NCBI RefSeq assembly: GCF_014203015.1
Contig: NZ_JACHIB010000018.1
Location: forward strand, 1-64,000
Length of the DNA stretch: 64,000 nucleotides
Source: Castellaniella defragrans
GTDB lineage: Bacteria; Pseudomonadota; Gammaproteobacteria; Burkholderiales; Burkholderiaceae_B
Direction: 5' to 3'
Under the pieces are notes generated by a model, which searched no databases, was not told where the DNA came from, and saw nothing but the letters and a program-made list of their open reading frames with translations. A program made the translations under genes and the position numbers. Shown here piece after piece: positions 2,879-16,007 of the stretch. Within the stretch, counting starts at the first letter, position 1, and every line of letters starts with the position of its first letter.

Positions 2879-5800
2879 TTTCTCAGCTGCCTGCGCGGCA
2901 GCGTGCTTCTGCGAGATATTACCGTCATCGTCCAGGTTTTTCTTGGGAGGCCTGGGACCACGATGGGCGGGCGTCCAGCCAAGGAGGAGGGTGTTCCCGC
3001 TGTTCTGTGATTGCTTATGCGGGCGACGAGCTGATGGCAGCAGGGGTTCCGCTTCGGGCCAGGCTCTTCGGCTGCCTGCGCGGCAGTGAACCACGCCCAA
3101 GGGGTTTCAGCAGATGGGCGTCTGTTTCTCAACTGCCTGCGCGGCAGCGAACGATCTGTTCGAGCACGCCTGCGGCCGCCACCATTTCTCAGCTGCCTGC
3201 GCGGCAGCGAACCTCTGCCACGCGCGTCCGGTGAGCGCAGCCCATTTCTCAGCTGCCTGCGCGGCAGCGAACACCGAACGAGATCGTCTTGGGCACTCCG
3301 TCAATTTCTCAGCTGCCTGCGCGGCAGCGAACTTGCTGGCGGTTCACTGGTCCTCTCCGGGGTATTTCTCAGCTGCCTGCGCGGCAGCGAACTTCCCTTG
3401 CTGGCCATCGTGCTCACACTCGTCTTTCTCAGCTGCCTGCGCGGCAGCGAACAAGGCGAAAGCGCAGGCGCTGGCCCAGGCTTTTTTCTCAGCTGCCTGC
3501 GCGGCAGCGAACATGCATCGGGCCGGGAGCGGCACGTCGGCGAGTTTCTCAGCTGCCTGCGCGGCAGCGAACTGCACATACCTGCGCCACGCCCAAGACT
3601 TAGCTTTCTCAGCTGCCTGCGCGGCAGCGAACATAGCGCAGCGCATTGTTAACGGCGGCCAATTTTTCTCAGCTGCCTGCGCGGCAGCGAACTCTGTTCA
3701 TGCTTATTTTGTTTTCATTGTCGATTTCTCAGCTGCCTGCGCGGCAGCGAACACCTTTTGCCTGCCTGGGCGCTGGCCGGGCTTTTTCTCAGCTGCCTGC
3801 GCGGCAGCGAACGGACCAGGGCAGCGGGCAGGCCTGGCGGATCATTTCTCAGCTGCCTGCGCGGCAGCGAACGATGGAGTGGGCGCGAATCTTAAACGGC
3901 GGCATTTCTCAGCTGCCTGCGCGGCAGCGAACGATGTCGGCCAGGTCATCATCAATTCTGCGAATTTCTCAGCTGCCTGCGCGGCAGCGAACCGGCAGGC
4001 GGCCGATGATGTCAGACATTGGCGTTTCTCAGCTGCCTGCGCGGCAGCGAACGTTGGTGCCCAGCATCGCCAGCATCGAATTGATTTCTCAGCTGCCTGC
4101 GCGGCAGCGAACGCCTTGGCCGCATTGTGCGACCTGGCCCACCATTTCTCAGCTGCCTGCGCGGCAGCGAACTTCCCAGTCCCTTCGTGAAAGGCGTAGC
4201 CGACATTTCTCAGCTGCCTGCGCGGCAGCGAACACAAACGCGCCTGAACGCCGGGCGGGCGAAGTTTTCTCAGCTGCCTGCGCGGCAGCGAACTCGATCC
4301 TGGGCTACGGCAGCGCGATCTTCGCTTTCTCAGCTGCCTGCGCGGCAGCGAACCCGTCAGCGCGTTATTCCAGCGTCGCGCATCTTTTCTCAGCTGCCTG
4401 CGCGGCAGCGAACGTATCGCGTGATCGATGAAGGTGGCCTCGCGTTTTCTCAGCTGCCTGCGCGGCAGCGAACCTGGACCCTGGGCGAAAAACGGAGATC
4501 GTCGCTTTCTCAGCTGCCTGCGCGGCAGCGAACGACGATGCACTGCTGGACGCCGACGCGTCGAATTTCTCAGCTGCCTGCGCGGCAGCGAACCTGCCAT
4601 CCAGCAGCGTGACAGCAACGGGGAGTTTCTCAGCTGCCTGCGCGGCAGCGAACCTGCCATCCAGCAGCGTGACAGCAACGGGGAGTTTCTCAGCTGCCTG
4701 CGCGGCAGCGAACACCGGCCCGGCCGGTTTCGAGGGCGTGACAGGTTTCTCAGCTGCCTGCGCGGCAGCGAACCTGGGCACCAGCTACCAGCTTGCCGAC
4801 GTCGATTTCTCAGCTGTCTGCGCGGCAGCGAACGCATCAGCGCAACCTGGAGGCCATCGACAAACTTTCTCAGCTGCCTGCGCGGCAGCGAACCGCATTG
4901 GCACGAGGATCATCTGGCGGGGCTTTTTCTCAGCTGCCTGCGCGGCAGCGAACTCCCTGCGTCTGCGTAACGCCGAACTCACGAATTTCTCAGCTGCCTG
5001 CGCGGCAGCGAACGGCGGCGTGATCGCGCTGACCTGGTTCGACGATTTCTCAGCTGCCTGCGCGGCAGCGAACCCAACGGTCGCTGGCTTCCAGCGTGTC
5101 CAGCGTTTCTCAGCTGCCTGCGCGGCAGCGAACCTCCCGCAGCGCATCACGCTCTGCCGCGTACTTTTCTCAGCTGCCTGCGCGGCAGCGAACGTGGCTG
5201 CGGCACGCGCATTGGCCGACACACATTTCTCAGCTGCCTGCGCGGCAGCGAACAAAAACGCGAAGCTGGGGCTCCTGCCCCGCATTTTCTCAGCTGCCTG
5301 CGCGGCAGCGAACACGCGGGGCTTTTGTTGGGAGCGACTATGCCATTTCTCAGCTGCCTGCGCGGCAGCGAACTGGTATTGGCGCAACTACCTGCTGTCC
5401 GATGATTTCTCAGCTGCCTGCGCGGCAGCGAACTCGAAGCCCGCATAAATATTGGGGTGACCGATTTTCTCAGCTGCCTGCGCGGCAGCGAACGGCTGTC
5501 CGGATCGATTCGTCCACAAATAGACTTTCTCAGCTGCCTGCGCGGCAGCGAACTATCCAGGTCGGCATTCCGGCGGACTGGGGTTTTTCTCAGCTGCCTG
5601 CGCGGCAGCGAACGTACTGGATCGCGGCGTCCTCGGCGGCGTCCAGTTTCTCAGCTGCCTGCGCGGCAGCGAACCGCCTCGGCCACGGCAGCGCCCCGCG
5701 CAGTCATTTCTCAGCTGCCTGCGCGGCAGCGAACGAAGCCAACGTTGACCCGTTCGATGGCTTCATTTTCTCAGCTGCCTGCGCGGCAGCGAACCCTTGG

Positions 5801-6585: not shown

Positions 6586-7161
6586 TCAGAACCAGGGCAG
6601 TGTGGCCGTGCTGCTCAAGCCATAGGTATTGAACACACCGGCCACGGGCTGCGGTTCCGCGTCCCCCAAGGCCAGGAACAGGCAAAACCGCTGCGCCGTG
6701 CTGGCGCTGCGCAACTGCACATAGGGCAGGTCCGGCTGCCGTTCCACGCTGTCGGGGATGGCCTGCACCGCCTGCTCGTAGGTTTCCCCCTTTCTGCGCA
6801 TTCGTCGATGACGGAGACGCTCCGCACTGGTCTTGAACTGGCGGCGCAGCAGACGGCGATGCTGGACATCCTGTGGCACGGCAGACAAAGCCCCCAACTC
6901 TACATGGTCACGCATCCCTCGCAGCCAGTCGGTGGACAGCAAGGTACTCAAGGCACTGTCGCTGCCATGCACCCGCATGATCCGCCCCAGGGTGCGCGGC
7001 TGCATGCTGTACTGAGGGAAACTGACTCCGATTGCATCTGCACCCAAGCCCACCAAGGCGCGGTGAAACTTGGCATACAAGGCCCCCAGCAGGTGGGCCT
7101 GGCTGAATTCGGGATCAGGCAGCAACCTGACGTCGATGTAGTGGGTGATCATGGGCATCAC
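6586..7161 (-). CDS. cas6f: Cas6f (Csy4) crRNA endoribonuclease
   Basis: Processes the pre-crRNA within each repeat and stays on the crRNA 3' hairpin as part of the I-F Csy complex. The 191-aa length and the sequence fit Csy4: an N-terminal [13 protein letters not shown] strand, His33 in AKFHRAL matching the catalytic His29 of Pseudomonas Csy4, an Arg-rich helix ([12 protein letters not shown]) for binding the repeat stem-loop, RSASTAQRF with the conserved serines, a late Tyr-Gly, and a C-terminal PWF. The first codon is GTG at 7161, whose GTGA overlaps the cas7f stop; ATG codons at 7158 or 7152 are alternatives. It is the last gene of the cas8f-5f-7f-6f operon and lies next to the leader. 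Confidence 0.97.
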
Positions 7162-8186
7162 TTCCCGGCATCGCCGAACACGCCGCCCCGCACCAGCACC
7201 GCCATGACGAAATGCTGCTGCTCGATATCGGGGACCTTGTCCTTGAGCACCCAGTCATCGAACAGATTGTAGAAGTCGAGGCTCGGCTTGACCTTGGGCT
7301 GGCGATAAGCCTTGCCTTGCGTCGTGACGGAGCCATACGGCTCCACCGCGATGGGTCCCAGACCGTCCGCCCCGCTGTACCAATCATCGATGGTCCGGAT
7401 GGCATTGCCCAGTTTCTGGGAATGGATGGCGGCTACGCCACCCACATCGTAGAGCGTCTTGCTCTTGTCACCCCGGCCCCGCTCCAGCACCAGTTCCTGG
7501 GAGGGGAAGACTTCCTGCCCCGCCCCGATCCGGGCGAAAGCCGTAACCTGCAGCAGGACATGACGCTTGCCCGCCAGACCGTCCGCGATCAAGGCCGCCA
7601 CGGCATCCCGGTCCGCCTGCGCGCCACCCGCCTCGAAATTCCTCAGTCCCAAGGACAAGGCATCGAAAGTCCAGCTTTGCGTGACCCTCCCCCGCTCCAG
7701 CAGGGAGACGATCACGCTCACTTCTTCGGCACCGACCCGGTTGCGCCACAGGAAACGGCCATTGGCGAGGTTATGGGCATACCGGCGCGCCAGTTCGGTG
7801 AAGCCATTGGCCTCGATATAGCTACCTACCACCTGCGACAGTTTGGCCTCGTAATCCGCGTCATTGCAGGCCGAGGGCTTTCCGGTTCCCGGCAGCACGC
7901 GCAGCGTGAAGCTCACTTTCAGCGTATCGGCATCGGCCGGCAGAGCGGCCACGTCCACCGTCTGCGGATTCGGACTTTCAATCGCGGCATCCAGTTTGGC
8001 CTGATCCTGCTCGGCAGCCTTCAACCGATTGGAGATAGTGCCCCGCACGGACTTTTCTTTGATACCAACGGCAGGCCATTGCGCGGCAGCGTTGGCCTGA
8101 TCGTCCCACGAGCCTGCGGCGAACAAGGCATCGGACGGGTCCAGCTTGCGCTCAAAAGCAAGGACGGAAGCGGTTTTCAACGGCAT
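7158..8186 (-). CDS. cas7f: Cas7f (Csy3), Csy complex backbone
   Basis: RAMP-fold protein of which six copies line the crRNA spacer in I-F Cascade. The 342-aa product starts [22 protein letters not shown], typical of Csy3, and carries the conserved [12 protein letters not shown] and NGRFLWRNR segments and a late [13 protein letters not shown] motif. The stop overlaps the cas6f start and a 35-nt gap separates it from cas5f, indicating translational coupling in one operon. The backbone flips out every sixth guide base, which matters for the promoter match described at 10671-10703. Confidence 0.96.
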
Positions 8187-8221: not shown

Positions 8222-9265
8222 TCAAAGGGTTTCCGCGCTCACCGGCGGATAAGAGGGAGATTCGTCGTCCCCATCCGCTGATGGAGACTCATAGCCACTG
8301 CAGCAGCGGTAGAGGCCGTCTTCATGGTGTTCGCCCCACCACAGCAGGTCCTGGACGCGCCGCAGTCGATGCGGACCGATCCACTGGCCAATGGAATACA
8401 CGCCCTCCACGAACCGGAACGGTGTGGTCTGGTCGCGTGCATTGGCGACCTGCCCACCCGCGTATAGATCCGACAAAGCGGCATAGCCGACAGGTATGGG
8501 CACGATCCAGCCCGATCCCTCAGGCCGATCATGAGTCCAGATGACGCGATCTTTCTTGTCCCGACCACTACGGTAATTGAAACGTGACAGATCCAGCCAG
8601 GCGTCCAGCACGGTGACCTCCGGATCCTGCAGGCGCAGTTGCTCCAGACGCCGCTGCATCAGATCGTCCCGACCCACCAGGGTGAATCCCGGCAGCCACT
8701 GGCGACGCAAGCGCCGGAAAAGCGTGCGCTGATCCATTTCCTGATCCGGCCAGCCCATCAGCGCCGGCGTGACGCGGACGCCTGGCCCCGGTCTGGGCGG
8801 CAGCACCGTCCCCCCTGCAATCCGCATCGAGCCCACCAATTCCCGAATCATCCAGGCAGCTTTCCTGCGGAGGGATTCATCGCCGCAAAATAGCAGGTGG
8901 ACCTCGCCTTCCTGCATGATCGCGCGAATCTGAAACACGAGGGTCAGTTCCAGATGGATGCGGCCTTCTTCAACGATGGCGGCCGTACTGCCATCCTTGG
9001 CCACCGGATTGCGGGTCAGGTGGAAGGTCCGGACATAGCCTTCCTGGACCTGCTCTTGATGCCAATGGCAGATCACCCCGATCTTTTCCAACTGCAATGG
9101 GATGTCCGCCGCCTTCAGTTTGCGGTTCAGCGCCCACATGAAGCCCAGGAAGGCCGTCATGGAAGGGAAACCATGCGTCAGGGGACTGGAAATCGCATTG
9201 GCATTCTGGACGCGCACGTGCGGTAGGACCAACAGCCCGTCAAATTCCCGATCTGCGAGGCTCAT
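8222..9265 (-). CDS. cas5f: Cas5f (Csy2), crRNA handle-binding subunit
   Basis: The 347-aa Csy2 protein binds the crRNA 5' handle (here CUGAGAAA) together with Cas8f at the tail of the complex. The N-terminus (LLVLPHVRVQNANAISSPLT) and the following HGFPSMTAFLGF match the family's conserved opening. The start ATG overlaps the cas8f stop by 4 nt, giving a tightly coupled order of 8f-5f-7f-6f. No frameshift or missing segment is evident. Confidence 0.95.
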   Translation of the reverse strand: MSLADREFDGLLVLPHVRVQNANAISSPLTHGFPSMTAFLGFMWALNRKLKAADIPLQLEKIGVICHWHQEQVQEGYVRTFHLTRNPVAKDGSTAAIVEEGRIHLELTLVFQIRAIMQEGEVHLLFCGDESLRRKAAWMIRELVGSMRIAGGTVLPPRPGPGVRVTPALMGWPDQEMDQRTLFRRLRRQWLPGFTLVGRDDLMQRRLEQLRLQDPEVTVLDAWLDLSRFNYRSGRDKKDRVIWTHDRPEGSGWIVPIPVGYAALSDLYAGGQVANARDQTTPFRFVEGVYSIGQWIGPHRLRRVQDLLWWGEHHEDGLYRCCSGYESPSADGDDESPSYPPVSAETL

Positions 9266-10635
9266 ACGGTGCCCTCCCGCGTCGGAATGTAATGGGGCGC
9301 ATCCAGATCGGTTCTCAGATCATGCAAGGCGCGCGCCCAGCCTGCTTCGCCCTCGTCGAGCAGCAGTTCCTTTTTCCAATAGCGCTGCTCGACCTCTCCC
9401 ACGTACTTGAAATTCACCTCGAGCCGTTCATTCAGCCAGTTGCCAAAACGGTGACCGATACGGGCCGGCCAATCCATGTACAACCAGTCGCTGCGAAACT
9501 TGTCATCAGCCTCAGCACGCCAATGATCAAGCCAGAGCCGTTCCTCGTACACCAGCATACAGCGGGGGTCGGCTGTCCAGCCTTTGGGCTGGCCCCGACG
9601 GATTTCGCTGGCCATGGCCACCAGTTCGTCGATCAGATTGCCCACATAGGCATCCACTCGGTCACGGGTTTCCATATTGGATGGAGGATCCTTCTGCAAG
9701 AACCGCAGCAACGCCCTGACGTTCGCCCCCACATTCCCATACCTCATCAATACAGGGCCGAATACAGAGGTCACTCCCCAAAGTTGGCGAGGCACGTTCG
9801 GATCCCATTGAGGTGGCAGCGAACCCAGTAGGTAATTCATGCCATCACGCTTAGTATTTAAATAGGATACATTCTGTTTTTGTGCCCCGCCCAGTTTGCG
9901 CACAGCCAGCGCGGGATAGTGTCGAATGACGCTTTCGTGCTCCTTACCTTTCTGGCGCGCCTCGCGCGCCGCCTTGTTCGCATCACCAAGGTCTTCCTGC
10001 AAGGCTGTGTGGACGGACTGCGCCAATGACGTGGCATACAGGGGAGACAACAGATGGTACTGCGCATCATCGCCAGCATCCTCTCCCGTCAGCCAATACA
10101 CCTGCTTGGCCAGTGCATGACTCGCCACCGTCTCTTCGCGCGCCTGTGTCAGGCCGATGAATGCCGACTGCCACTCGCACGCCTTGGCTTCGTCATCGCT
10201 CAGTGCCCGCACAGCAGCCGGGTCATCCTCTGACAACCAATCCAGCAGCGTACGGCCATCGACCTCCAGTTTCAGGAATTTATAGACATCCAGCGCCGCC
10301 GCATTGCCAACCACGTCGCTGGCAAACCCGGCTCCCAGCAAATGACTGCCCACCACCGCGTGAGGCTTCATCCCGGATGGCTCCACGAACAGGTTGGTGC
10401 CTCGCGCGTCGGGATGCACCGCCTTCAGGGCATGCGTTACCGCCTGGATCTGGCGGACACGCCGGGCGGCATCTTCCAGCCAGGTGACGGGCTGGTATTG
10501 GGCGATCAGGTCCTCCCGCTTGGGATCGTCCGTTGGCAACTTCGACAGTTTGGCTTCCAGGCGGTCTTGCAGAAAAGCCGCGATCACTTCACGGATGTGA
10601 TGAATTTGTCTTGCGAGGTCTTGTGCTTTCGACAT
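9262..10635 (-). CDS. cas8f: Cas8f (Csy1), large subunit with PAM recognition
   Basis: Large subunit of the I-F Csy complex; family members read the CC PAM and recruit Cas2-3. I chose the ATG at 10635 (MSKAQDLARQIH, 457 aa) because GGGGGA lies 3-8 nt upstream on the coding strand. An upstream in-frame start at 10674 would run through the promoter region. Conserved features include HPDARGTNLFVEPS near residue 85 and a C-terminal KELLLDEGEAGWARALHDLR stretch. It is the first gene of the Csy operon. Its promoter (10665-10693) is the apparent target of the degenerate guide at 10697-10783. Confidence 0.94.
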   Translation of the reverse strand: MSKAQDLARQIHHIREVIAAFLQDRLEAKLSKLPTDDPKREDLIAQYQPVTWLEDAARRVRQIQAVTHALKAVHPDARGTNLFVEPSGMKPHAVVGSHLLGAGFASDVVGNAAALDVYKFLKLEVDGRTLLDWLSEDDPAAVRALSDDEAKACEWQSAFIGLTQAREETVASHALAKQVYWLTGEDAGDDAQYHLLSPLYATSLAQSVHTALQEDLGDANKAAREARQKGKEHESVIRHYPALAVRKLGGAQKQNVSYLNTKRDGMNYLLGSLPPQWDPNVPRQLWGVTSVFGPVLMRYGNVGANVRALLRFLQKDPPSNMETRDRVDAYVGNLIDELVAMASEIRRGQPKGWTADPRCMLVYEERLWLDHWRAEADDKFRSDWLYMDWPARIGHRFGNWLNERLEVNFKYVGEVEQRYWKKELLLDEGEAGWARALHDLRTDLDAPHYIPTREGTV

Positions 10636-10664
10636 GAATCCCCCAACATAGAACTGTTTTAGGT

Positions 10665-10693
10665 ACAATACCACTGTTTGTGAAACTTTTGAA
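10665..10693 (-). promoter_or_regulatory. predicted promoter of the cas8f-cas5f-cas7f-cas6f operon
   Basis: On the minus strand, TTCAAA (10693-10688) and TATTGT (10670-10665) are separated by 17 nt and lie about 30 nt upstream of the cas8f ATG. Both hexamers match four of six consensus positions. The CC PAM and guide-matching sequence (10671 onwards) fall between the two boxes. Confidence 0.55.
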
Positions 10694-10703
10694 TAGGTAA
10701 TCT
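10671..10703 (+). promoter_or_regulatory. partial protospacer with CC PAM in the csy promoter
   Basis: CC at 10671-10672 is followed by ACTGTTTGTGAAACTTT (10673-10689). The degenerate guide begins ACTGTTCGTGAGACTTT (10725-10741), so 15 of 17 bases agree and complementarity stops after about position 17. Mismatches fall at guide positions 7, 12 and 18; 12 and 18 are flipped-out positions in I-F complexes. A match limited to the seed-proximal half is expected to allow binding without Cas2-3 cleavage. Confidence 0.75.
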
Positions 10704-10783
10704 ACTGAGCAAGTAGCTGAGAAAACTGTTCGTGAGACTTTCTCGTAACAGTCATCCTTTCTGCCGCACAGGCAGCATCCCGA
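10697..10783 (+). CRISPR. degenerate two-repeat mini-CRISPR, candidate CreR-like cas-regulating RNA
   Basis: The first pseudo-repeat (10697-10724) matches the array repeat at 20 of 28 positions. Its stem is CTACT/AGTAG around GAGCA instead of CTGCC/GGCAG around GCGCA, which is two compensated base pairs, and it keeps the 8-nt handle CTGAGAAA exactly. The second (10756-10783) has CTGCC-GCACA-GGCAG, one base different from the array stem-loop, while its flanks have decayed. The 31-nt stretch between them would be the guide. The elements kept are those needed for one mature crRNA: handle from repeat 1, Cas6f hairpin from repeat 2. Transcription would be plus strand, towards higB; I cannot place its promoter confidently (a TACAAT at 10664-10669 lacks a good -35). 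The guide can itself fold as an imperfect hairpin, ACTGTT with AACAGT, which is an alternative reading. Confidence 0.8.
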
Positions 10784-10814
10784 ATCCCGGTAAACGGTAT
10801 AAAATGGTGCACAC

Positions 10815-11097
10815 ATGACCATCCAATCCTTCCTCTGCGAGGAAAGCCGGAGTCTGTTCATGACTGGCAGCACCCGCCGCTTCGCCAACATCCAACGGGC
10901 GGCTGAACGCAAGCTGGCACAGTTGGACGCCGCGGCCACATTGGACTTTTTTGCGCAGCCCGCCCGGCAACCGCCTGGAAAGGTTGGCGGGAGATCGATT
11001 GGGGCGCTACAGCATCCGGATCAATGCCCAGTGGCGCATCTGCTTCATCTGGACAGACGAAGGCCCGGCAGAGGTCGAGATCGTGGACTATCACTGA
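10815..11097 (+). pseudogene. higB: HigB-type RelE-family toxin, frameshifted
   Basis: HigB-like mRNA-interferase toxin next to its antitoxin. From the ATG at 10815 the frame gives MTIQSFLCEES...[10 protein letters not shown], a good HigB N-terminus, and then goes out of frame at a T6 run (10947-10952). Removing one T restores [19 protein letters not shown] and the typical end [10 protein letters not shown]...VEIVDYH, with stop at 11095-11097. So it is a one-base indel, not gross decay. It could be a real inactivation, a slippage-controlled gene, or a homopolymer sequencing error. A TATAAA at 10798-10803 may serve as -10. It sits between the two cas operons on the opposite strand. Confidence 0.9.
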
Positions 11098-11149
11098 CGG
11101 AATACCTCGATGGCAAATGACACGTCGACAGGAACAGGAGGACTCCGAC

Positions 11150-11461
11150 ATGATCAAAAACGGCATGCGCCCCGTACATCCCGGCGAGGTCCTGCGCGAG
11201 GACTATCTGATCCCCCTGGGAATGAGCGCCAATGCGCTGGCTCGCCACCTGCTCGTCCCCGCCTCCCGCATCAACGACATCCTGCTCGAACGGCGCGGCA
11301 TCACGGCAGATACCGCGCTGCGCCTGGCCCGTTATTTCGGCGGTGACGCGCAATCCTGGCTGAATCTCCAGGCCTCTTTCGATCTGCGAACCGCGGAACT
11401 GAACCCAGAGTTGCAGACGGCGCTGGCAACGCTCCGCCCCATGGAATCCGTTCCAGCATAA
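11150..11461 (+). CDS. higA: HigA-type antitoxin, XRE/VapI family
   Basis: Helix-turn-helix antitoxin expected to neutralise HigB and autorepress the pair. The 103-aa protein opens with MRPVHPGEVLREDYL, characteristic of HigA/VapI, followed by an HTH (SANALARHL...RINDILLERRGITADTALRLARYFG). The start is the ATG at 11150 with an AGGAGGA ribosome-binding site at 11136-11142; the same frame is open upstream but lacks this signal. The gene is intact while its toxin is frameshifted. It ends 32 nt before the cas2-3 stop and is convergent with it. Confidence 0.92.
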   Translation: MIKNGMRPVHPGEVLREDYLIPLGMSANALARHLLVPASRINDILLERRGITADTALRLARYFGGDAQSWLNLQASFDLRTAELNPELQTALATLRPMESVPA

Positions 11462-11493: not shown

Positions 11494-14400
11494 TCACCCC
11501 TTCACCGCAAACCCCAGCGCCGGATGCCAGAACCAGCCTTGCTCACTGGCGGGCAGCGTAGCGCGCGCATAGCGCTGGGCGAATGCGTCCAGGGACAGGC
11601 CCAGGGCCTCGGCCTGATCCGCCATGCAGCGCGCGAAATCCTCTTCCACACTCCAGCAACCGATCCCCTCGCCCCGAACCGCAGCGTCCGGCACATCCCA
11701 GCGCTGGCTGGCATCGATGCAAACATGAAGTTCCAGAAACCTCCGCTCGCCCTCCTCGACTCGGTACAGGCGGAGCACATCGTCCTCATCGGGCAACCAG
11801 ACCACCTCCACATCGGGCTGGGGCTGATCACGGAACGGCTGCGCCTGCTGCAGGAAAGCGGTCAGCCGCGCATGGTCCCGCAACCAGAAGCTGGTGGCGT
11901 TCAATGCATGCACCCGCTCCGGCGGCAGCATCTGATGCTCCATCCGGACATGTTCGAGATCGACCAGATTACCGGCGGGCAGGCGATCCGATCCGGCGCG
12001 CGCAACGATTCGCGGCCGCGCGTCGATGGGCATGCGCTGATCGCCATCCAGCCAGGGCGCCAGCAGCGCCGTCAGACGGTGCGGCCGCAGGGGATAGTCC
12101 GGACTCTCGAAACCCGGTCGGCAGAAAGCAGGCTGGCCCGGCCTGTCGAAATGCTTCAGATTGCTGTCGCACACCAGCAGATTGGGCTGTGACACGGCCT
12201 TGTCACGGCGATGACGCCACACCCGGCCCGCGAGCTGAATCAGCGACCGCATCGAAGAGGGCTCGACCACGGCCCAGTCATAGTCATGATCGCGCCCGAC
12301 TTCGGTCACGGGGGATCCCAGCACCACGAACAACTGATCCCGGGCCTCCACCGCGTCGATGCGCCGGCGCACGTCGGGCAGGTCGAACACGGCGGCCTCC
12401 TGACGCCGATCCAAGGCGGTATCCAACAAATGTTCGATCCGGGATCTCAGGAACAACGGAAACCGGGCGTGGTAGACGCACAGATGGACGTGCACTCCTG
12501 GAGGCGCCCCGAGGCGGAACAAAGCCAGGGCCACCTCGAACAACGGGTCGATATTCGCCATGCGGATCAGGCCGAAGCTGATCCGCTTGCCACTATGCGG
12601 GTCTTCGGTGCAATGCACGGCATGCAAATCCAAAGCGGCATCCCGCAGGAGGCCGGCAAAGGCGCCCCGACGGCTCGCCTGATCCAGCTTGCCCAATTCC
12701 CCAGGTAACGGCAGCAGGCGGACCATGCGACGTACCGCCTGCTCTCCCAGCCGCCGGGCACGGTCCGCAGCAAAAGTCTGGTGCGCCTGACCGAATCGTT
12801 CCGTATCCGGACAGTCCGCGTGGGTCTGCGCGAATTCATCGATCCAGAGGCAACACACGGAGGGCGCTTCCGACGGCCGGGCACCGCGATTGCGCTGGAA
12901 CCAGCGGCGGCCCTCCAGGTAAGCCATAAACAAGCCCTGGATCAGTGCGGGCGGCAAGGTCGCCGAGGACACCAGGACACGCGCACCCAGCAAGCCCGCC
13001 CAGTGCACGAGACGAGCCAGCGCCGGCAGGTCGGACAGATCGAAGTCGTCCGGCTCATCCAGCACCAGGTCTCCCGTCATCAAACGCAGCATGGGCACGA
13101 TCTGGCGGCCACCCCGCAAACCCTCCGTGGCCGGTGTCAGATGATCGACGGTGCAAACCAGCAGGGGCGCCGCCAGAAAGCGCCGGACCCCGGCATCCTT
13201 TCCCAGATGATCCAGCACCGGATGGCGGTCATCGCCGTCGTAGACGACATGGGTGGTCTCGTCCAGCAAGGATTGCCGGGAGGCGGAACCGCTGTCTTCG
13301 GCAAGCTGCGCGTAATACTCGAACAGCTCGCGGCTGGCCGCGCCCCCGACCCGGATGGCCAGTTCGTCATCCGGCAGGCCCAGGTCTTTCTGAAATACCC
13401 GGCCCGTCTGCAAGGTCAGGGTGCGCAGGCCGACGGCGAATGCGCAGCGCAGACCCAGCACGGGATCGGCCAGCGCATTCATGATCCGGGCGTTTCCCAG
13501 TGTCTTGCCGCAGCCGGTCGATGCCATGTTGACGATGAATGCACCCTGATCCGCCGCGCGCGAACGCACCCCGGCGGCGAGATCAGCCGCCTTGTCCTGC
13601 CAGCGGAACGCAGGATTCAGGCTGCGTTTTTTCAGCCCCTGGTGCCCGGCCAAATGGCGCAGATCCCGCGTCAGGACCGGCAGTGAATGCACGATCCGGC
13701 CCGCATGCAACTCGACGCCCAGCAGATGCTCGTCCAGCGGCTGCAACAATGCGCCGGTCTTGCGCCGGGTATTGGCGAACAAGGGAAAATCCTTCTCTCC
13801 CGTGGTTCGATCCTCTTCCGCTTCCAGGCTGGAATAGTGATGATCCCCCAGCATCAAGGCCAGGCGCGATACATGCATGATGTAGGGATCGCCCAGGCAG
13901 TCCTCGATCCCCGGCAAATCCCCCAGCAGATCCCGGGCGATGCGCGCGGCCCGCTTGCGCCATTTCAAGGTTCGCACCGGCAAGCCGTGGAGAAATTTCC
14001 AATAGGGTTCGATCTTCCTTTTGGATATTGCCGGCTGCTCGCCCCAAGGCTCGTTCCAGTCCGCGTCGATCTGGCTCAAGACGGCATCCAGGGTCCGGCC
14101 ATTCACCCCTCGAGGTGATCGGCCATGCCATAAACGGGTCGACTCGAGGGACTCGCTTGCGCTGTACGGCAGGGCGGGCAGGCGGTGGTGCGTCAGCACC
14201 AGCCAGGCCACCGCCCGAGCCAGGGGAGGCAGACCCTTGTCCGATGAAGCGAACGGCTTGTTGTCGCGCGCAGCCGCATCCAGGCCGTCACGCAACAGGC
14301 GGCCTTTCCTATGATCCAGCCAGGGAGCCTCGAAACGCTCTCCGTCGACGTTTTCCCCGCCCCCATCGATCAAGCGCCGCAGCCACCCTGCGTCATCATC

Positions 14401-14889
14401 CTGGCCGACAAATGCCTGGAACAGGCGCACGGAGACCCACTCATGGCGATAGCGGTTCCTTTCCTGGGGTGCTTTGTGCTGCAAACGCTCTTGAAAGGAC
14501 TGGGTCGCCTTGCCCAGGTCATGCAATAGCGCGGCCAGGGCGGCAATTCTGCGGATCGTCCGCAGGCTGTGCCAATCATTCTCGTCGTCGCGCCGCAGGA
14601 CGTCGCTTGCGGTCGTGTTCGTCGGCACGGCGCCTTCGGCGTTGAACTGCCGGGCATCGCCGACGATCCACAGCAGTTCGCTATGATCCCGGCCCCGGAT
14701 CCAGTGACAGGCCACGGCCGTGTTCTTGCGCGCCGTCTGGCGCAGCAGCTTCCTCAGGGTATCCAGACCTGCCCGGGTCATCGCGGTCTGCCAGGTCCGA
14801 TCGCCCCGCCGCTCGGCAAATTGATCCAGGATCCGGCGTGTTTCCGTCAAAGCCCGCTTGCTGCATTGGGAAACCAGCAGGACATTCAT
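11494..14889 (-). CDS. cas3f: Cas2-3 fusion nuclease-helicase (type I-F Cas3)
   Basis: Degrades DNA licensed by the Csy complex and acts with Cas1 in spacer acquisition. At 1131 aa it has the I-F architecture: an N-terminal Cas2-like domain (about 1-95, opening MNVLLVSQCSKRALTETRRILDQ), an HD nuclease domain (LLHDLGKA, His-Asp at 123-124), and an SF2 helicase with Walker A STGCGKT (about 457-463) and a Walker B-type LDEPDD near 610. A C-terminal domain follows. The start overlaps the cas1 stop by 4 nt. It is separated from the cas8f operon by higBA on the other strand, so cas1-cas2-3 and the Csy genes are two transcripts here. Confidence 0.96.
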   Translation of the reverse strand: MNVLLVSQCSKRALTETRRILDQFAERRGDRTWQTAMTRAGLDTLRKLLRQTARKNTAVACHWIRGRDHSELLWIVGDARQFNAEGAVPTNTTASDVLRRDDENDWHSLRTIRRIAALAALLHDLGKATQSFQERLQHKAPQERNRYRHEWVSVRLFQAFVGQDDDAGWLRRLIDGGGENVDGERFEAPWLDHRKGRLLRDGLDAAARDNKPFASSDKGLPPLARAVAWLVLTHHRLPALPYSASESLESTRLWHGRSPRGVNGRTLDAVLSQIDADWNEPWGEQPAISKRKIEPYWKFLHGLPVRTLKWRKRAARIARDLLGDLPGIEDCLGDPYIMHVSRLALMLGDHHYSSLEAEEDRTTGEKDFPLFANTRRKTGALLQPLDEHLLGVELHAGRIVHSLPVLTRDLRHLAGHQGLKKRSLNPAFRWQDKAADLAAGVRSRAADQGAFIVNMASTGCGKTLGNARIMNALADPVLGLRCAFAVGLRTLTLQTGRVFQKDLGLPDDELAIRVGGAASRELFEYYAQLAEDSGSASRQSLLDETTHVVYDGDDRHPVLDHLGKDAGVRRFLAAPLLVCTVDHLTPATEGLRGGRQIVPMLRLMTGDLVLDEPDDFDLSDLPALARLVHWAGLLGARVLVSSATLPPALIQGLFMAYLEGRRWFQRNRGARPSEAPSVCCLWIDEFAQTHADCPDTERFGQAHQTFAADRARRLGEQAVRRMVRLLPLPGELGKLDQASRRGAFAGLLRDAALDLHAVHCTEDPHSGKRISFGLIRMANIDPLFEVALALFRLGAPPGVHVHLCVYHARFPLFLRSRIEHLLDTALDRRQEAAVFDLPDVRRRIDAVEARDQLFVVLGSPVTEVGRDHDYDWAVVEPSSMRSLIQLAGRVWRHRRDKAVSQPNLLVCDSNLKHFDRPGQPAFCRPGFESPDYPLRPHRLTALLAPWLDGDQRMPIDARPRIVARAGSDRLPAGNLVDLEHVRMEHQMLPPERVHALNATSFWLRDHARLTAFLQQAQPFRDQPQPDVEVVWLPDEDDVLRLYRVEEGERRFLELHVCIDASQRWDVPDAAVRGEGIGCWSVEEDFARCMADQAEALGLSLDAFAQRYARATLPASEQGWFWHPALGFAVKG

Positions 14890-15893
14890 GCCTTGCCTTC
14901 ACGGCCCGAAGCGACTGGAGCAGCCTGGCGGGCGGCCGTCATGGCGATGTCCTTGACCGCATCGATCATGAAATCCAGGGACTCGCCGCGCGTCAGCGCC
15001 TCGATGCAGTTGCGGCGGAACTGCTGCTCATCATCGCCCCGCATGGCGGACAGGAAAGCCTGTGGCAGGATGCAGGCGTCCTTCACCAGATCCGCCACGT
15101 CGAACACCAGCCCACCGCGCCGTGTCTTGCCGTGCAGGACCGCCAGACCATGCGGCAAGCCCAGCACCCAGCATGCCGTGGCACCCAGCCCATAGGCAAG
15201 ATAATTGCCATGATCCAGGAAACGGTTGGCGGGATCGACGCCGGACCCGCGTTTGGCGCGCGTAAAATCCTCGCCATAGCCAACCGCATCGACGGCCAGC
15301 TTGAACAGCGCCTTGGTCAGTCTGGCTTCCTCGGTCAGCAGATCGACTGTTTCACCGGCCTGATCCACACGCCGCGCGCTCTGCGCCAGCAAGCCGTCCA
15401 GCCGCTCGACATTCACATTGAAGCCGGACTCCCGCAAACCCGCCTGGCGCCACTCTGCGCCCAGACGTCGGATGCGGGCCTGCTGCAGAGCCTTGGCGGC
15501 GACCAGCCGACGGGCATCATCGAACCAGAATTCCACCCATGCCTGCAGGTATTCCGTCGGCCGGTATTCACTTTGCGGACTGAGCCAGGCGACCTCGACG
15601 TCGACTTCGTTGGCGGAGAACAAAGGCGTCCCGCCGCCTCCGCAGAAGCCCACCAGCACGCCGGCCTTGGCCAGTTCCCGCATCGCGGCCTGGGTGATGG
15701 AAGTCCCTGTTCCCAGCAAAATGCTGGTGGTGTTGGCGATCGGTATGTTCCAGTACAGGGAACGCTTGCCCGCGTCCGTCACATACTCGACGCGGCCTCC
15801 GTTGACCAGCACCCGGCAATGCTCCAGGCAGTAGATATTGGCCCGCTTGGAGTGCAGGATCGTCTTGAGGTCGGAAGCCGCGATATCATCCAT
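14886..15893 (-). CDS. cas1: Cas1 integrase (type I-F)
   Basis: Integrates new spacers as a complex with Cas2-3. I chose the ATG at 15893 (MDDIAASDLKTILHSKRANIYCLEH, 335 aa), which matches the usual I-F Cas1 beginning and has AAAAGGATTC directly upstream; an earlier in-frame start would add about 30 unrelated residues. Metal-binding residues are visible: Glu in LTEEARLTKALFK, His in VLHGKTRRGG and the Asp pair in FDVADLVKDA. It is the first gene of the cas1-cas2-3 unit. The next gene upstream, an OPT transporter 114 nt away, reads in the same direction. Confidence 0.96.
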   Translation of the reverse strand: MDDIAASDLKTILHSKRANIYCLEHCRVLVNGGRVEYVTDAGKRSLYWNIPIANTTSILLGTGTSITQAAMRELAKAGVLVGFCGGGGTPLFSANEVDVEVAWLSPQSEYRPTEYLQAWVEFWFDDARRLVAAKALQQARIRRLGAEWRQAGLRESGFNVNVERLDGLLAQSARRVDQAGETVDLLTEEARLTKALFKLAVDAVGYGEDFTRAKRGSGVDPANRFLDHGNYLAYGLGATACWVLGLPHGLAVLHGKTRRGGLVFDVADLVKDACILPQAFLSAMRGDDEQQFRRNCIEALTRGESLDFMIDAVKDIAMTAARQAAPVASGREGKA

Positions 15894-16007
15894 GAATCCT
15901 TTTGTAACACAAAGGACGAGGGCCGCGTAGAAAACTCTGAGGGCCAGGCCATCCTGCAAGCGTCCGCGCAGCCTGCAGGCCAACGCGGCGTCCCTCCCTC
16001 CGACGCC

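Follow-up and report, generated by a model that had tools for sequence, protein, structure and literature searches.

A CreR-like mini-CRISPR upstream of cas8f, a probable RNA-guided autorepressor of the type I-F csy operon in Castellaniella defragrans

The window analysed here, a 64,000-nucleotide stretch of the Castellaniella defragrans genome (contig NZ_JACHIB010000018.1, positions 1 to 64,000 of the forward strand), holds a complete type I-F locus of clustered regularly interspaced short palindromic repeats (CRISPR) on its minus strand, composed of cas1, cas2-3, an 858-bp gap, cas8f-cas5f-cas7f-cas6f and an array exceeding 50 repeats. Inside the gap, on the plus strand and divergent from cas8f, lies a mini-CRISPR of two degenerate repeats. 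We propose that this element is probably a type I-F CreR-like gene, that is, an RNA-guided autorepressor of the csy operon. Its anatomy, its target upstream of cas8f, the protospacer-adjacent motif (PAM) of that target, the uniqueness of the target in the genome, and the recurrence and pairing pattern of such elements across type I-F loci are established at the sequence level. Coordinates are given in Table 1.

The original prediction, made from the letters of the window, had described two degenerate repeats with a 31-nt spacing beside cas8f, and alignment to the array repeat confirmed this. The same alignment bore out what had been said of each repeat. The first pseudo-repeat (psiR1) carries the handle CTGAGAAA at 10717-10724, with no differences from the array handle, and its stem, CTACT/AGTAG, has two compensated pairs relative to the CTGCC/GGCAG of the array. 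The second (psiR2) has lost its flanks and keeps a Cas6f-type stem-loop (CTGCCGCACAGGCAG, 10761-10775) with an intact CTGCC/GGCAG stem and a single loop change, GCACA for GCGCA; it is also the sole match to the Rfam family CRISPR-DR4, below threshold (20.1 of 35 bits). Folded alone, psiR1 does not have its 5-bp stem as the minimum-energy structure; in the 87-nt context of the whole element the stem is present in the centroid and absent from the minimum-energy fold, and the fold of the 87 nt is not unusual (z-score −1.12). When the cas8f-cas3 region of the window was submitted to 2000 dinucleotide shuffles, 67 gave a two-repeat call of any kind, none equalled the real one, and none gave a call with a CC-flanked target of at least 13/15 (scoring below). 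Chance repeats were thus ruled out.

CC is the PAM of type I-F systems. A CC-flanked target of the guide, which had escaped the original prediction and was recognised only in the follow-up analysis, is present between the mini-CRISPR and cas8f. Positions 1-6, 8-11 and 13-17 of the guide pair with 10673-10689 and positions 7 and 12 do not, giving 14 of the 15 scored positions (1-5, 7-11 and 13-17). A scan of the 3.94-Mb genome for CC plus the 15 scored positions returned one site with 1 mismatch, the window target, and the next CC sites had 3 mismatches; the guide's own locus came up with two mismatches, as it lacks the PAM. The scan thus gave no second CC target within 2 mismatches, for instance one that could serve the control of the higBA genes behind psiR2. 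Over the first 20 guide positions the target is the best match in the window, the guide itself excepted, and when 20000 shuffled guides were set against the 90-nt stretch that precedes cas8f, none scored above 12/15. It is the PAM-near 17 nt alone that stand out in the match. The target occupies the space between the predicted −35 and −10 sequences of cas8f, and the 35 nt from the PAM to the cas8f start show no unusual fold (z −0.25). Since the target is only 37 bp from cas8f, there is no room for a toxin RNA, and a promoter at the target can therefore serve only cas8f or the guide itself.

We then looked at related loci, gathered by means of Cas8f and numbered with the prefix L. Cas8f was found in 13/250 relatives and in 18/399, 32/369 and 12/268 genomes of the order, class and family, respectively (each of the four counts includes the window's own genome), as well as in 4/6, 4/11, 5/54, 16/85 and 37/201 members of other groups; the various sets overlap. 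A Cas8f scan of viral contigs gave no relative. Loci were added from Acidovorax benzenivorans (one named genome) and from plasmids (17 matching records, 8 of them in the counts, seven further plasmid loci being outside the 68 analysed below and two of the 17 records not included). The set omits one class-level place (G767) and ten places from the 37/201 group. Five entries were excluded beforehand: L001, which duplicates L002; L023 and L028, the two parts of a single locus; L059, whose repeats are those of a true array; and L061, the second of two copies in its genome. The 68 loci analysed, out of 119, have at least 130 nt upstream of cas8f, and the search ran to the end of cas3 where found, otherwise up to 1,300 nt; the cas3 end was outside the stretch in 13 of the 68 and missed by the script in 4 (L027, L091, L096 and L102), for which 1,300 nt were searched.

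A target-blind caller, relying on repeat stems, handle and spacing alone, detected a mini-CRISPR in 40 of the 68 upstream regions, so that a single-locus curiosity is ruled out. In 38 of these 40 loci (the exceptions are L008 and L071) the same region contains a CC-flanked target with at least 11/15 matches. Controls behaved differently: 1360 shuffled regions gave 34 calls, one of them with a target, and 1.3% of 1560 non-cognate guide/region pairs had a target, compared with 38/40 for the cognate ones. A relaxed, target-guided scan added six pairs (L015, L049, L054, L060, L086 and L114). The guide is on the cas strand in L010 and L011, and in L013 guide and target occupy opposite strands.

In Cascade, every sixth base of the CRISPR RNA (crRNA) is turned out. 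The 38 guide/target pairs match in 100% of cases at positions 1-5, in 89-97% at positions 7-11 and in 71-95% at positions 13-17, while the unscored positions 6, 12 and 18 match in 29, 21 and 29%, which is near chance. This 5+5+5 pairing has the six-nucleotide rhythm that is the footprint of a Cascade guide. Pairing fades past position 17, and these guides would seem to be shaped for binding, not for full interference. Guide and target also change together: between L068 and L069, guide and target alike have changed at positions 11, 15, 16 and 20, and among five locus pairs with similar guides, of which only L068/L069 are clearly close relatives, four have co-changed positions and L094/L109 has none. 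The earlier proposal, a CreR/CreA-class guide of type I-F encoded opposite to the cas genes, is supported, as far as sequence can speak, by the genome-unique CC target next to cas8f, by the recurrence in 40/68 loci and by the 5+5+5 pairing.

Table 1. Position of the mini-CRISPR, its target and the neighbouring features in the window.
Feature	Coordinates	Strand	Basis or remark
Pseudo-repeat 1 (psiR1), degenerate I-F repeat	10697..10724	+	Alignment to array repeat, 20/28 identical; target-blind call
Pseudo-spacer (guide), 31 nt	10725..10755	+	
Pseudo-repeat 2 (psiR2)	10756..10783	+	17/28 identical to array repeat; flanks lost
Target	10671..10689	+	CC PAM 10671-10672 and 17-nt core protospacer 10673-10689; 37 bp upstream of cas8f start
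Predicted cas8f promoter	10665..10693	-	−35 TTCAAA (10693-10688), 17 nt, −10 TATTGT (10670-10665)
cas8f (csy1)	9262..10635	-	Pfam Cas_Csy1 PF09611, E 7e-131; first gene of the presumably repressed operon
cas5f (csy2)	8222..9265	-	Pfam PF09614
cas7f (csy3)	7158..8186	-	Pfam PF09615
cas6f (csy4)	6586..7161	-	Pfam PF09618; presumed guide processor
Main I-F CRISPR array, repeat GTTCGCTGCCGCGCAGGCAGCTGAGAAA	3064..6474 (ends approximate)	-	
HigB-like toxin gene, between mini-CRISPR and cas2-3	10815..11098 (end approximate)	+	Homology to L003
HigA-like antitoxin gene (helix-turn-helix)	11150..11461	+	Pfam HTH_3 PF01381
cas2-3	11494..14889	-	Pfam Cas3_I-F_Cas2 and Cas3-like domains
cas1	14886..15983	-	Pfam PF01867

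The distance between target and cas8f distributes the 38 loci into a short form (5-75 bp, 14 loci) and a long one (107-535 bp, 24 loci), on the understanding that the cas8f start codons were guessed by script and the distances could err by some tens of bases (L092 has 30 bp by script, and the near-identical L135 66 bp by annotation). A plasmid of Methylobacter sp. YRD-M1 (NZ_CP091425.1; 66 bp, 11/15) is an example of the short form; L112, which is the published Acinetobacter LoGeW2-3 I-F CreTA, falls in the long group with 203 bp. A strongly folded creT-like RNA was considered as a mark of the long intervals, for which raw energies were suggestive, but was weakened by shuffle controls, under which folding no longer separated the two groups: z was −2 or lower in 7/24 long and 1/12 short intervals, and −0.3 in L112. 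A −35-like TTG no more than three bases from the PAM, present in 9/13 short loci (in the window as TATTG), was also ruled out as a mark of the short group by its presence in 12/22 long loci. The long group is thus CreTA-like by position alone. Seven loci with targets more than 100 bp from cas8f (L016, L029, L034, L044, L076, L078 and L081) have interval z values of −2.7 to −3.8; long-distance loci, these seven among them, are candidates for further I-F CreTA modules. For the window, the choice between CreR and CreA would fall to CreR by distance.

Several observations weigh against autorepression and have to be set beside it. The predicted cas8f promoter is weak (8/12 consensus matches) and a stricter scan with a 9/12 cut-off did not list it. 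Over all 32 positions the target scores 18, a value equalled by four other sites in the window, which have no CC. In the 87-nt context, self-folding of the pseudo-spacer is predicted. Position 7 of the guide, mismatched in the window, is paired in 95% of the 38 related pairs, and in Acinetobacter CreA this position was required, its loss abolishing repression (PMC10097628). Pseudo-repeats in related I-F loci, whose absence would have counted against the original prediction, were found as described, but 28/68 loci gave no target-blind call, and 22/68 gave no pair by either the target-blind or the relaxed scan. Had the excluded L023/L028 been kept, it would have contributed a call without target (9/15) and brought the proportion to 38/41; together with L059 (8/15) it would have been 38/42. 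Finally, L003, from a sister species and alone among nine same-genus genomes in having the system, has an eroded psiR1 and a PAM of CT instead of CC, and its homologous site pairs at 9/15; guide and site there have changed together at positions 10 and 14, and five other pairs are lost. The relaxed scan found in L003 just an 11/15 site, with 3/5 at positions 1-5. This copy looks decayed.

Transcription, processing, loading, repression and relief of repression would then proceed as follows. A plus-strand transcript would be cut by Cas6f after both stem-loops, and the predicted product, 10717-10775 or about 59 nt, would consist of the handle CUGAGAAA, the 31-nt guide and the 3' stem-loop. This guide RNA would load into the Csy (Cascade) complex and direct it to the CC-flanked site at 10671-10689 in the cas8f promoter, where pairing limited to about 17 nt, with positions 7 and 12 left unpaired, would allow binding without destruction by Cas2-3. 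Plentiful free Csy complex would lower transcription of cas8f-5f-7f-6f, and array crRNAs or anti-CRISPRs occupying the complex would relieve the repression.

The element could instead be what is left of a CreTA module, a creA whose toxin RNA, creT, has been lost, with binding near cas8f persisting as a relic that hardly affects cas expression. The cas3-csy1 slot with a cas-divergent guide is also that of the published I-F CreTA (PMC10097628), which was recovered as L112; moreover, 24/38 loci have room for creT between target and cas8f, and the sister-species copy shows erosion. We nevertheless judge this reading distinctly unlikely: CreTA identity for the window element is disfavoured by the lack of space, the window pair still stands at 14/15, and the 14/38 loci without room for creT keep strong pairs (11-15 of 15), meaning that the guide/target pair is kept without a toxin RNA.

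A CrePA-like switch, in which read-through from the guide promoter would feed higBA and be limited by Csy binding at 10671-10689, appears very improbable. The higBA genes are on the same strand as the mini-CRISPR and begin about 30 nt past psiR2, with no terminator-like site listed in between, and other I-F loci, too, repeatedly have protein toxin-antitoxin genes between cas3 and cas8f. Against this, the genome offers no other CC target at the two-mismatch limit, the HigB-like frame of the window is broken and has no Pfam match (the homologue in L003 is intact and matches HigB-like_toxin, PF05015), the mini-CRISPR loci L005, L017, L064, L093, L094 and L109 have gaps of just 214-360 bp, and in L033, L083, L086 and L095 the toxin-antitoxin genes are on the cas strand. 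That the element is a defunct CRISPR remnant, without function and matching by chance, as its degenerate repeats, weak promoter, position 7 mismatch and sister-species erosion might suggest, is hardly credible given that 0/2000 shuffles reach its repeat anatomy and target and given the compensated stem pairs, the intact handle and the same pairing pattern in 38/40 calls.

About ten kinds of protein toxin-antitoxin genes were observed in the cas3-cas8f interval of 17 I-F loci: the window, L003, L007, L008, L033, L034, L069, L071, L080, L083, L086, L095, L100, L105, L106, L114 and L137. They comprise HigB (L003 by Pfam, the window by homology), BrnT (L007), DUF6088/AbiEii (L008), ParE (L080 and L095), CcdB (L034), RelE (L033), Gp49 (L106), HepT/nucleotidyltransferase (L069 and L071), TacA or GNAT (L100 and L105, and by annotation L137) and PIN (L083 and L086, and by annotation the VapC of L114). 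For ten loci whose cas3 was not in the sequence first taken, extending that sequence brought in cas3 and cas1 a short way further on; these ten include L016 and L052, which are outside the toxin-antitoxin count. The interval looks like a toxin-antitoxin hotspot. In L016, an Rpn-like nuclease gene (Pfam Transposase_31) is found behind the mini-CRISPR, upstream of cas8f. As for the main array of the window, 52/57 spacings equal 60 and 54/58 repeat cores lie within identical 28-mers; two neighbouring units (4566-4685) contain an identical spacer, and an orphan repeat (GCACGCTGCCGCGCAGGCAGCTGAGAAA on the minus strand) is located 185 nt past the degenerate terminal repeat (about 2879-2906 and 3068-3095, respectively).

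A wider picture can be drawn, which with all its parts taken together we consider unlikely. The type I-F cas3-cas8f slot would hold a divergent mini-CRISPR, which Csy reads in three blocks of 5 nt, in interchangeable CreTA and CreR states, guarding a toxin RNA or repressing cas8f directly; protein toxin-antitoxin pairs would have been recruited behind the guide, and read-through from the guide promoter would couple cas8f control to their expression when Csy is lost or inhibited. Since folding does not separate the long and short groups, our confidence in this picture was lowered slightly. As to the autorepressor itself, if it is one, type I-F, among the best-studied subtypes, would join the subtypes with RNA-guided self-repression, and this would explain how Csy levels are restrained in some split I-F operons and how these operons react to anti-CRISPRs. 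From the 38 pairs a concrete rule of pairing can be read (CC PAM, positions 1-5, 7-11 and 13-17), the distance criterion may separate CreR from CreTA, and similar guides are worth seeking in every I-F locus with a cas3-cas8f gap.

Among the known systems, an origin as a phage-borne RNA anti-CRISPR (a solitary repeat) was rejected: none of 50,697 phage records showed similarity to 10630-10800, and the target of the element adjoins cas8f. CrePA (Shu et al. 2024, Nat Chem Biol) is alike in that Cascade and a crRNA-like RNA repress a CRISPR-associated gene; it represses a KilA-N-domain protein toxin (PMC12737573), whereas the window target lies next to cas8f, and no guide target in a protein-toxin promoter came out of the genome scan for CC sites within 2 mismatches. 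The Citrobacter rodentium CreTA also has a divergent creA-like element between cas3 and casA and a PAM-flanked target at a promoter UP element, but is of type I-E and has a translated 96-bp toxin (PMC12055562). Closer is the I-F CreTA of Acinetobacter sp. WCHA45, LoGeW2-3 and ANC3789, which shares the cas3-csy1 position, the divergent orientation, the CC PAM and a psiR1 more degenerate than psiR2, and in which 17/20 guide positions are paired, not 6, 11 and 18 (PMC10097628). The window has such a divergent cas3-csy1 mini-CRISPR with a CC-flanked target. However, the Acinetobacter target controls creT, lies downstream of the creT transcription start and is separated from csy1 by a mini open reading frame of 33 bp (PMC10097628), while the 37 bp between target and cas8f in the window contain no creT.

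CreR, the cas-regulating mini-CRISPR RNA, was reportedly described by Liu et al. (2023, Cell Host Microbe). No report of a type I-F CreR was among the matches listed in the open literature, a search that did not extend to Liu et al. itself, and their paper may already cover the I-F case. In reviews, CreR is named for types I-B, I-E and V-A (PMC13131331), is given for type I broadly and V-A (PMC12737573), and is further treated in another (PMC12948488). These three sources have CreR as a degenerate mini-CRISPR linked to cas genes; its guide has limited complementarity to a cas promoter by a PAM, there is no toxin RNA, and relief by crRNAs or anti-CRISPRs is expected. The window differs in being of type I-F, with a guide gene divergent from and adjoining the csy operon and a HigBA pair behind it. 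In it we find a degenerate mini-CRISPR linked to cas genes, a partial complementarity with a CC PAM (14/15, 37 bp) to a cas promoter that is itself a weak prediction, and no toxin RNA between the target and the cas genes; among relatives, the short-distance form is kept in 14/38 loci, and the same-genus copy is eroded. The window element thus agrees with the sequence-level definition of CreR, lacks one of the features that define CreTA, and would presumably act on cas8f.
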